Source: Candidatus Cloacimonadota bacterium
GTDB taxonomy: Bacteria > Cloacimonadota > Cloacimonadia > Cloacimonadales > TCS61
Direction: 5' to 3'
Assembly (NCBI GenBank): GCA_021736135.1
Contig: JAIPGO010000034.1
Coordinates: 1 to 36,405, forward strand
DNA: 36,405 nt
A program made the translations under genes and the position numbers. Each line of letters starts with the position of its first letter. Positions within the stretch are counted from its first letter, which is position 1. Positions 12,193-34,556 of the stretch are shown here, in pieces. Below the pieces are notes generated by a model. That model saw nothing but the letters and a program-made list of their open reading frames with translations. It was not told the DNA's origin and did no database searches.

Positions 12193-12318
12193 GAGGAATA
12201 TAGAGATTATAAGTTTAATTCTGGATCCAGAAGACTTTGGGGGAATTTAGATAAATCTTTTTAAACCACTTTGGAGACTGTGCGAGTATTATTATTCGTC
12301 CCTGAAATGGATTGAATA

Positions 12319-12471
12319 CCCAGTTGAGCCAAGAGTTTTGGACTGTAATCAGGACAAGACTTTTGAGCGACATAGTCATGATAATGTTATCTTAAGTGCC
12401 TGTTTTGATAAACATTAGTCGCCCAAAAGTCTTGCCCGGAGTACCGTTCAAAACTCTTGTTCTTAGCTGGG
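12319..12471. repeat. Palindromic ~153-bp element, copy 1
   Basis: Long terminal inverted arms read inwards from CCCAGTTGAG at the left and CCCAGCTAAG (reverse strand) at the right. Each arm carries two related motifs, CAAGAGTTTTG and CAAGACTTTTG. A second copy lies at 34161-34314 with the same arm differences (left ACTGTA..TCAGG, right ACGGTACTCCGG), so both copies have the same orientation. The central 40-50 bp differ between copies. There is no ORF inside. This fits a non-autonomous MITE/REPIN-like element. The rest of the gap (12193-12318) shows no gene and no clear terminator for the TolC operon. Confidence 0.8.
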
Positions 12472-12556
12472 AATCATTATCTTATCTATGAAACAAACTG
12501 TTTTCGCACAATCTCTTTGTGCAGTAGGATTCCACAAAGTGGGTTTAACAATGGAA

Positions 12557-23034: not shown

Positions 23035-24306
23035 TTATATTTTCCATTGTTTAAACTGATATAAATCCTCATCATTGAGGAGCACATCCATTAGCACTCC
23101 CTCATCTTTGTATTCTTTCTCCAGCACAACTCCCAGCTTAAAAAGATGGGATATAATTTTCTGCTCCTGATGTGGAACAAGTATCTTAACCACGTGTGCA
23201 ATGTTTAATTTCTGGTCAACAACTTCTCGTAAATTGTCCAGATTTATCTTTTCCGATGCTGATATAAACACCGCTTCGGGATATGTTTCTTTCACAGCTT
23301 CAGTCACCTCAGAGAAGAGCATATCAATCTTGTTAAATACCAGCAGAACCGGTATTTCGGCTGCCTTGATCTCTGCCAGCACTGTCTCTACATCTGCAAT
23401 ATGCTGCTCAAAATTTGCATCAGTAACATCTATCAAATGCAGAAGCAGGTCGGCATCTACCACTTCCTGCAATGTCGCCCGAAATGATGCTACCAGATGA
23501 TGCGGAAGTTGTGAAATGAAGCCCACTGTGTCAGATAATATCACATCACGCCCCTTACCCAGGTTCAATGCCGAGGACGTGGATTCCAGAGTCGCAAACA
23601 GCTTGTTTTCCACTAGTACTTTCCCATCTGTTAGCGCATTAAAAAGAGTTGATTTCCCCGCATTAGTATAACCCACTATGCATACTTTTTTGAAATGCGA
23701 AAACCGGTATTGCCGCTGTACTTCTTTCTGACTGGCTATTTTTTCCAGTTCCAGTTTTGCTTTACGCATTTTCAAACGCACGTAGCGCTTGTCCAGTTCC
23801 AGTTGCTTTTCGCCACTGCCACGGGATATTCCTCCCGTACTTGCAGTCCCTTTTTCCCTGTCCAGATGTGCCCAGAGATTACGTAGTCTCGGCAGTTCAT
23901 ATTCATAACGTGCCAGGTTTACCTGTATCCTCGCTTCACTGGAGCGCGCATGCTGTTTAAATATCTCCAATATCACTTCTGTTCTGTCCATGATGTCTTT
24001 ACTGGTTTTCTTGCTGATATTACGTATCTGCGACGGATGCAGGTCATTGTCGTAAATCAGCAGATCGTCTTCTGCCATCCCGGACACTACTTCCTCAATA
24101 AAGCCTTTTCCGGTATAAAGCGCTCTGTCTGGCCGGTCTCGTTTCTGCAGATTTATGCTTCCGGTTTCCAGCCCCATCGTCTGCACCAGTAATTTTAATT
24201 CCTGCAGCGATTTCAGTTTTGCATCCTCATCTTTAGGTGCGCAAATCCCTACCAGATGTGCCTTAGGTAATTTCTCCTCAACTTCTATCAATTCTTTCTG
24301 ACTCAT
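23035..24306 (-). CDS. hflX: HflX ribosome-associated GTPase
   Basis: The protein has 423 residues, normal for HflX. An N-terminal HflX domain (about 10-200) includes 'RPDRALYTGKGFIEEV', 'DNDLHPSQIRNI' and the glycine-rich 'GTASTGGISRGSGEKQLELDKR'. The GTPase domain has G1 'GYTNAGKS' (212-219), G3 'DTVGF' (259-263), G4 'NKID' (325-328) and G5 'SAS' (349-351). HflX binds the 50S E/P region and splits stalled 70S ribosomes; in mycobacteria and Listeria, HflX homologues give macrolide/lincosamide tolerance. The start at 24306 is chosen because it has a perfect AGGAGG ribosome-binding site. The frame stays open for 25 more codons upstream only because it runs into the heptamer array. It lies downstream of the ABC exporter pair and upstream of the aminopeptidase gene. 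Confidence 0.95.
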   Translation of the reverse strand: MSQKELIEVEEKLPKAHLVGICAPKDEDAKLKSLQELKLLVQTMGLETGSINLQKRDRPDRALYTGKGFIEEVVSGMAEDDLLIYDNDLHPSQIRNISKKTSKDIMDRTEVILEIFKQHARSSEARIQVNLARYEYELPRLRNLWAHLDREKGTASTGGISRGSGEKQLELDKRYVRLKMRKAKLELEKIASQKEVQRQYRFSHFKKVCIVGYTNAGKSTLFNALTDGKVLVENKLFATLESTSSALNLGKGRDVILSDTVGFISQLPHHLVASFRATLQEVVDADLLLHLIDVTDANFEQHIADVETVLAEIKAAEIPVLLVFNKIDMLFSEVTEAVKETYPEAVFISASEKINLDNLREVVDQKLNIAHVVKILVPHQEQKIISHLFKLGVVLEKEYKDEGVLMDVLLNDEDLYQFKQWKI

Positions 24307-24321
24307 AATGCCTCCTATTAT

Positions 24322-24432
24322 CCATCGTCCATCGTCCATCGTCCATCGTCTATCGTCCATCGTCCATCGTCCATCGTCCATCGTCCATCATCCATCATCC
24401 ATCGTCCATCATCCATCGTCCATCGTCCATCG
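24322..24432. repeat. Heptamer array (CCATCGT)~16 between ABC exporter and hflX
   Basis: This is 111 bp of nearly perfect 7-bp units; variants are CTATCGT and CCATCAT. On the transcribed (minus) strand the unit is ACGATGG. The perfect unit has no stop codon in any frame and encodes the same heptapeptide cycle in all three. It ends 15 bp before the hflX start codon, just upstream of its ribosome-binding site. A small GCGCC-GCA-GGCGC hairpin (24432-24444) lies next to it. It is not a CRISPR: units are far too short and have no spacers. Confidence 0.95.
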
Positions 24433-24456
24433 CGCCGCAGGCGCTCCGTCCATCGT

Positions 24457-34082: not shown

Positions 34083-34160
34083 TCACATAATTGAAATCAA
34101 TATTCGCATCCCCCCGTTTTTTCTGTATTCATTGAAAATTTAAATTCAAAGAAATTGTCA

Positions 34161-34314
34161 CCCAGCTAAGCCAAGAGTTTTGGACTGTACTCAGGACAAG
34201 ACTTTTGAGCGACTAATGTAAGTCTGATTAACCAGTTACATAAAAACATCATCTCATTGGTGTCGTCCAAAAGTCTTGTCCGGAGTACCGTCCAAAACTC
34301 TTGACTTAGCTGGG
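34161..34314. repeat. Palindromic ~154-bp element, copy 2
   Basis: It is the same element as 12319-12471, about 22 kb away, same orientation. Terminal arms start CCCAGCTAAG on both strands; each arm has CAAGAGTTTTGGAC and CAAGACTTTTG. The arms of this copy match each other better (nearly perfect for about 48 bp) than those of copy 1, suggesting it is younger. The middle about 45 bp is not shared. No ORF. Confidence 0.82.
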
Positions 34315-34450
34315 ATATCTTTTCCATTAATAGAAGAAATTCCATAATCATAATCAACACTATCTTTTTGCTGAATAATTTGTTATAAATATCTCTGAAT
34401 ATTTTTTCAGCGGGATGCCAGCATAATTGAAATCAATAGGGTTGTACTAA

Positions 34451-34556
34451 GGAGGTACAGAGGAGGATCTCGAACATCACAACATCGATCAATCTGACAT
34501 AATGTTGTTAGATTGATCGATGTTGTGACGGACTTGTACCTCCTCTTTACCTCCTC
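34451..34556. repeat. Second type of palindromic element
   Basis: The inner perfect 19-bp stem is 34477-34495/34510-34528 with a 14-nt loop. Outer arms GGAGGTACA (34451-34459)/TGTACCTCC (34535-34543) and GAGGAGG (34460-34466)/CCTCCTC (34550-34556) can also pair, in competing registers. Nested inverted repeats with no ORF; a MITE-like element or structured RNA. Confidence 0.7.

Follow-up and report, generated by a model that had tools for sequence, protein, structure and literature searches.

Two long palindromes lie in the 36,405-nt stretch of Candidatus Cloacimonadota DNA analysed here (contig JAIPGO010000034.1; the whole stretch is referred to as the window), and they raise the question of what kind of element they are and how it has spread. 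A preliminary description of the window had placed them at 12319-12471 (copy 1) and 34161-34314 (copy 2), where both are present, and had read their arms mainly as the ends of a transposon. The palindromes are not a two-copy transposon. They are very probably REP doublets (REPIN-like) of a genome-wide family that belongs to a RAYT, a transposase of the Y1 HUH type which some of the genomes concerned also encode, and each of them is in addition the core of a different MITE-like shell.

A repeat search of the window returned the arms of each copy as inverted repeats (Table 1), and in both copies arms of ~53 nt flank a spacer of 46-48 nt. The left arms of copies 1 and 2 are 94% identical over 54 nt. 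Folded as single strands the two copies gave z values of −10.1 and −14.6, equalled by 0 of 200 shuffles, and are thus far from chance. The remark that the arms are common to both copies and the middle is not proved correct, the spacer having kept its length and not its sequence. The asymmetry between the arms was equally well seen: at one stem pair the left arm has CTG..CAG and the right arm CGG..CCG in both copies, and this is general in the organism's own 4.14-Mb genome (G000), where 21 out of 27 doublets are T-A/G-C heterodimers at one stem position. Both window copies lie between ORFs; elsewhere, one unit overlaps the 3' end of a RAYT gene. An Rfam scan of the window gave no match and a tRNA scan found none. 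Two further repeats were seen in the window, namely another long palindrome just past the shell of copy 2 (34450-34555; 50-nt arms, 82% complementary, with a 6-nt loop and AGGAGGTACAGAGGAGG motifs) and a tandem array of the 7-nt unit ATCGTCC at 24293-24446, around the 5' end of the minus-strand ORF 23035-24381.

Table 1. Positions of the palindrome units, shells and target duplications in the window.
Feature	Position	Strand	Basis
Left TSD TTTG, type B shell	12270..12273		TSD table
Type B MITE-like shell around copy 1, 242 bp, ends GAGACTGTGCGA / TCGCACAATCTC	12274..12515		TIR search, family and TSD table
REP unit, left arm of copy 1, T-A type; CCCAG-type outer end, 11+3 bp hairpin, inner foot AGCGAC	12319..12371	+	model R2, 69.4 bits; ssDNA fold −7 vs −3.8 kcal/mol for the other strand
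Doublet spacer of copy 1, 46 nt	12372..12417		G000 gap classes 24 and 46-50
REP unit, right arm of copy 1, G-C type	12418..12470	-	model R2, 71.1 bits
Right TSD TTTG, type B shell	12516..12519		TSD table; unoccupied target sites
Left 17-bp target duplication CATAATTGAAATCAATA	34086..34102		all 17 positions as in the right copy; 30 shuffles reached at most 13
Type A MITE-like shell around copy 2, 319 bp, ends (TTC)GCATCCCCCCG / CGGGATGCCAG	34103..34421		family and TSD table
REP unit, left arm of copy 2, T-A type	34161..34213	+	model R2, 75.6 bits; ssDNA fold −7 vs −3.7 kcal/mol for the other strand
Doublet spacer of copy 2, 48 nt	34214..34261		gap classes, doublet table
REP unit, right arm of copy 2, G-C type	34262..34314	-	model R2, 78.4 bits
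Right 17-bp target duplication CATAATTGAAATCAATA	34422..34438		TSD table

The two 11-mers of each arm, CAAGAGTTTTG and CAAGACTTTTG, had been taken for sites in a row; they pair with each other inside one arm and form the two sides of a hairpin. The structure was examined in an alignment (A1) of 57 of the 88 arms found, near-identical and damaged arms having been excluded by hand, which was made without structure in mind. The hairpin has 14 pairs (11+3 bp), and 98.4% of 790 cells are paired. Seven of the 14 pairs have changed on both sides, which amounts to 59 double-change cells where shuffles give 15; none of 500 shuffles came up to this, and pairing falls to 24-68% when the partner is shifted by 1-3 columns. 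RNAalifold recovered the identical arm structure unaided. A larger set of 125 units (119 distinct), whose alignment was fitted to the model, was 97.7% paired with double changes at nine pairs, and in it two G.T pairs of the stem are nearly fixed (102 and 113 of the 119 rows). As single-stranded DNA (DNA parameters), three window arms fold at −7.0, −6.9 and −7.0 kcal/mol versus −3.7, −4.6 and −3.8 kcal/mol for the opposite strand; because of the two G.T positions, the arm hairpin forms well on one strand only. Among the 110 stem-pair positions that differ between the arms of 42 doublets, 89 keep the pair within the arm and 19 keep the pairing from arm to arm. Selection thus acts on the single arm, and a long arm-to-arm palindrome as the selected structure was ruled out on these counts.

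At its foot the hairpin has no GT[AG]G, the tag of the GTAG superfamily, in any of the 125 units on either strand; on the less well folding strand the foot reads CGTC in 26 and CG[CT][CT] in 89 of the 125. Two loci on different contigs (L006, L007) contain the same ~22-nt self-complementary insert within one REP arm.

For unit counts we used R2, a covariance model of one arm. The guess of a high genomic copy number was right: G000 has 61 arm units in 34 clusters, and the 160-bp copy 2 used as a query likewise hit many places in that genome. Counts in the other genomes were 77 (G026), 56 (G004), 48 (G019) and 2 (G029), and R2 found units in only 5 of the 124 genomes of the phylum, in three genera. 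With copy 2 as the query, matches were obtained in 5 out of 59 genomes, i.e. its own, all three from a sister genus and, with a single weak place, one from a third genus. A scan of a named genome collection for the exact arm pattern yielded 16 stretches, solely from Cloacimonadota MAGs (Candidatus Stygibacter frigidus, isolate Tobar13.5m-G52); the pattern was found in 0 viral contigs, and the doublet DNA had no match to plasmids and phages. The units are hence short hairpins with many scattered copies in G000, as are REPs, at copy numbers below those of many REP-rich genomes.

Every R2 row of all scanned genomes was used for the analysis of neighbours and spacers; set A3 comprised 69 chosen loci, with loci repeating the same places left out. 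Within 300 bp, neighbouring units in G000 are arranged head-out ('+-') in 25 cases and '-+' in none. The '+-' spacers measure 24 nt (6), 46-50 nt (18) or 68 nt (1), so that 24 of the 25 have one of two defined lengths, as expected of REPINs, which are inverted REP doublets with a defined spacer length. The 46-50 nt class is nearly confined to G000. The other genomes hold many single units, their '+-' doublets have mostly a ~24-nt spacer, and G026 contains a few arrays with '-+' and '--' neighbours.

Y1_Tnp domains (PF01797) occur in 44 of 59 genomes. RAYT-like loci from 28 sources (one a duplicate) in G000, G004, G019, G026 and G029 were inspected, among which units stood beside the gene at L096 and at L104/L067. 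At L084, an IS200-like gene of G000, two units lie nearby within a type B shell and were set aside when evidence for a RAYT was weighed. Related Y1 transposase genes (RAYTs) adjoin units of the family in three genomes, and one of these genes is flanked on both sides. This is the 192-aa RAYT gene of G026 (C286). A doublet precedes this gene at 7 bp and a further unit shares 23 nt with its 3' end; the reading frame ends within the downstream REP (L096, 52-74), which consequently supplies the last codons of the RAYT. Its best match in G000 (C106; 48% identity over 175 aa) has two units 90 bp past the 3' end. Flipped stem pairs leave these two with low scores (35 and 31 bits). One still adopts the same shape and the other a similar one, and in view of the low scores the C106 enzyme may act on a set of units that has diverged. 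Its best relative in G019 (C54; 46%) is broken by one stop; from 325 bp upstream of it there are two units, and the fold of one is poor. By chance alone, a cluster would be expected within 500 bp of a single named gene at 0.014, 0.033 and 0.018 in these three cases. A further relative in G011 (C50) is adjoined by hairpins of the same layout, though R2 finds 0 units in that genome. G004 has 56 units, yet no match to the C286-type RAYT at E ≤ 0.001. Other RAYT genes of the phylum (L122, L123, L124, L125, L126, L128, L129, L130) have their own, different repeats or hairpins alongside.

The enzymes have the Y1 HUH fold features, an HxH motif and a catalytic Tyr: NH[FY]H and YIHxNP are retained in 10 of 10 sequences. 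PF01797 is matched by the RAYTs, with L096 alone at 21.6 bits against a cut-off of 23. Scores against the NCBIfam REP-associated tyrosine transposase model (NF047646) were 58.4 and 54.3 bits, below the curated cut-off of 80. The only PDB sequence match of the RAYT is 4ER8 (TnpA-REP). This enzyme, bound to a REP hairpin, is also the top Foldseek match (E 4e-7) of the AlphaFold model (mean pLDDT 83). From the covariation and the adjacency we infer that a RAYT acts on the hairpins of this family, that the doublets themselves have moved, and which of the two strands is involved.

Many G000 copies resemble one another in their flanks, outside the palindrome, as well. While no clear target-site duplication had been noticed, duplications do exist, at the outer ends of larger elements that contain the palindromes. 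Two families were distinguished among ten type B and nine type A copies, with the partial type B copies C4, C135 and C88 outside the count. Type B shells are 240-242 bp long with ends GAGGCTGTGCGA, and nine of the ten examined copies have a perfect 4-bp TSD (TTTG, TTTA three times, TGAA, TAAA, CAAA twice, CAAT), the tenth being without recognisable ends. Terminal inverted repeats, a constant TSD and the lack of an ORF are those of a MITE. Six of the nine copies with a TSD sit in one interspersed repeat, AACCCAYWTTG.TGCAGTA as read from the flanks, and unoccupied copies of this target repeat occur elsewhere in G000. Type B shells favour as their target an interspersed repeat around AACCCAYWTTGTGCAGTA, which was seen at L110, L169, L173, L183, L018, L023 and L063. 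By position, no longer element that could be a parent transposon with the same ends was apparent among 31 end matches in G000, and the type B parent may be absent from the assembly.

Type A shells end in GGCATCCCCCCG. Their target duplication is identical at 15-17 of 17 positions in five of nine copies, with shuffles reaching at most 14, and there is none in the other four. For this shell, an IS family with long duplications (the IS1202 type) was considered as a candidate. At L069 (900-1260; G000:C53:18200-18560) the core of a type A shell is reduced to a ~50-nt mini-palindrome made of the outer sides of two REP stems only, and at L008 a type A shell holds a reversed doublet with an unrelated spacer, as if cores were exchangeable. 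A second repeat family of G000 (L170-L183; ends CCTGAATAATAAAACGGGGGGATGCCAG; at least 13 copies) has an end in common with the type A shell and differs inside.

Shell copies account for 18 of the 27 G000 doublets (8 type A, 10 type B). With most doublets inside shells, their spread in G000 need not involve RAYT at all, and one may ask whether by now the two shells alone spread them as passengers, the RAYT association being a relic. The broken RAYT gene of G019 and the lack of a RAYT match in G004 fit such a view. Six bare doublets with the 24-nt spacer lie outside shells in G000, however, and doublets occur in G004, G019 and G026, genomes in which a search at E ≤ 1e-3 turned up no type B shell. 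We therefore consider it unlikely that the doublets are passengers only.

The gene downstream of copy 1 is of the MscS type, and its orthologues in G004 and G019 are 84-85% identical. No unit was present around them in the stretches fetched; since the gene further upstream differs in these genomes, this is not a clean empty site for copy 1. The situation named in the preliminary description as adverse to mobility, only two copies conserved in place, thus does not apply, with 61 units in G000 and none at the orthologous gene. The same result bears on a role as RNA elements between genes, for which the doublets would be kept as terminators or stabilisers of mRNA 3' ends. The very strong folds and the location of both window copies between ORFs would suit it, and the available text of Di Nocera 2013 (PMC3733652) reports such roles for REPs. 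Against it are the lack of an Rfam match, the failure to be retained near the orthologous gene in G004 and G019 and the many copies in mobile shells; an RNA role may also be a side effect and not the cause of the spread. It appears improbable as the reason for which the doublets are kept.

The main idea of the preliminary description, that the ~48-bp arms are the TIRs of a DDE-type MITE, each end offering its transposase two 11-mers to bind, accounts for inverted arms, many copies and the absence of an ORF inside. However, the duplications are found ~45 to 107 bp outside the arms, at the outer ends, arms stand singly and in tandem in other genomes, and the differences between arms preserve the hairpin and not the pairing from arm to arm. 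It is hardly tenable. What stands of that description is the high copy number, the asymmetry of the arms and a relation to transposition; the arms are REP hairpins inside two different shells and not the TIRs of one DDE-type element. Integron attC sites and Tn7-like ends were also considered and were dropped given the intra-arm hairpin and the RAYT adjacency. Sites for a chromosomal DNA-binding protein of the nucleoid or partition type, duplicated by recombination, would have the conserved core and the genome-wide scatter of the units, but this reading is most improbable, as covariation of whole stem pairs favours a folded strand over a duplex site and the units are restricted to three genera of the phylum.

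Taking the palindromes as REP doublets, the likely course of events is as follows. The REP is a unit of ~53 nt with an 11+3 bp hairpin and two conserved G.T pairs, and two such REPs, inverted head-out around a spacer of fixed length, constitute the REPIN-like doublet. The RAYT would bind the hairpin on one strand while the DNA is single-stranded, as on the lagging strand or in a transcription bubble, cut beside it and move or copy the doublet, which would be the mobile unit. In G000 the doublet has also become the core of two MITE-like shells, within which other transposases (none found here) would carry it on, with 4-bp and 17-bp duplications. It is these duplications that point to carriage within shells.

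A bolder version is possible, though speculative: the REP doublet would be moved by two kinds of machinery, in that a RAYT would use the single-stranded hairpin, and two or more unrelated transposition systems would use the shells that have the doublet as their core. Shells might gain from carrying a REPIN, be it as a harmless RNA hairpin or as a captured function, and this RAYT lineage might read the stem marked by G.T pairs and the CG[CT][CT] foot instead of GTAG. If this is true, CGTC-like REPs would gain the dedicated transposase that was reported missing in 2013 (PMC3733652, in the part available).

The relationship of REPs and REPINs with RAYTs is extended here to Cloacimonadota, with a GTAG-less hairpin, a stem covarying across species and matching transposase genes in hand, and the system offers a direct test of what a RAYT reads without GTAG. 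The REP doublets nested in MITE cores represent a second route of REP spread, one that studies of REPIN copy number would miscount. Among the literature matches listed, no paper linked Cloacimonadota to REP or RAYT, and a search for REPIN with MITE and nested gave 0 matches, neither of which is proof of absence.

Of the known systems, the REPINs of Pseudomonas fluorescens SBW25 (Bertels and Rainey 2011, PMC3116915), as far as the available text describes them, are alike in being inverted doublets of REP hairpins, in keeping the length and not the sequence of the spacer, in their compensatory changes and in the link to RAYT. Here the hairpin is longer (11+3 bp) and has no GT[AG]G head, the host is a member of the Cloacimonadota, copies are fewer, and doublets are also nested in MITE shells.

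The accessible part of Di Nocera 2013 (PMC3733652) describes two REP superfamilies, GTAG and CGTC, which share with the present units tagged hairpins and head-to-head heterodimers, some families lying within palindromes; the heterodimers formed by the arms here match both these and the REPINs of SBW25 (PMC3116915, same reservation). The resemblance to CGTC concerns the foot counted above, which is on the strand opposite the better-folding one. According to the same text, CGTC families have stems of 8-9 bp with A-T first pairs and no associated transposase, whereas here the stem is longer (11+3 bp), starts with C-G and has RAYTs adjacent. With GT[AG]G absent and this misfit to CGTC in stem and lack of a transposase, we call the family REP/REPIN-like with its own RAYTs.

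TnpA-REP/RAYT subclass 2.6 and class 3 are, in the portion of PMC6006769 available, Y1 HUH enzymes flanked by genome-repeated hairpins without GTAG, as here. The signature of subclass 2.6 (NH[LIV]H, YIH[QN]NP) is close to the NH[FY]H and YIHxNP of our enzymes, a likeness by motif; the words Cloacamonas and WWE1 are absent from that paper.

E. coli TnpA-REP (PMC8266576, available sections; 4ER8) is the top fold match and sole PDB sequence match named above, and its REPs likewise have conserved non-Watson-Crick positions in the stem. Recognition by that enzyme is reported to be strand-specific, with cutting next to the hairpin, and the conserved stem mismatches matter. In contrast to the E. coli REPs there is no GTAG guide here, and two separate G.T positions (A.C on the other strand) replace the E. 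coli bulge. Finally, the location of most type B shells in one interspersed repeat is reminiscent of the targeting of REPs by IS elements (Tobes and Pareja 2006, PMC1525189, as far as the accessible text goes), except that here the inserting element is MITE-like, without a transposase, and itself carries a REP doublet.
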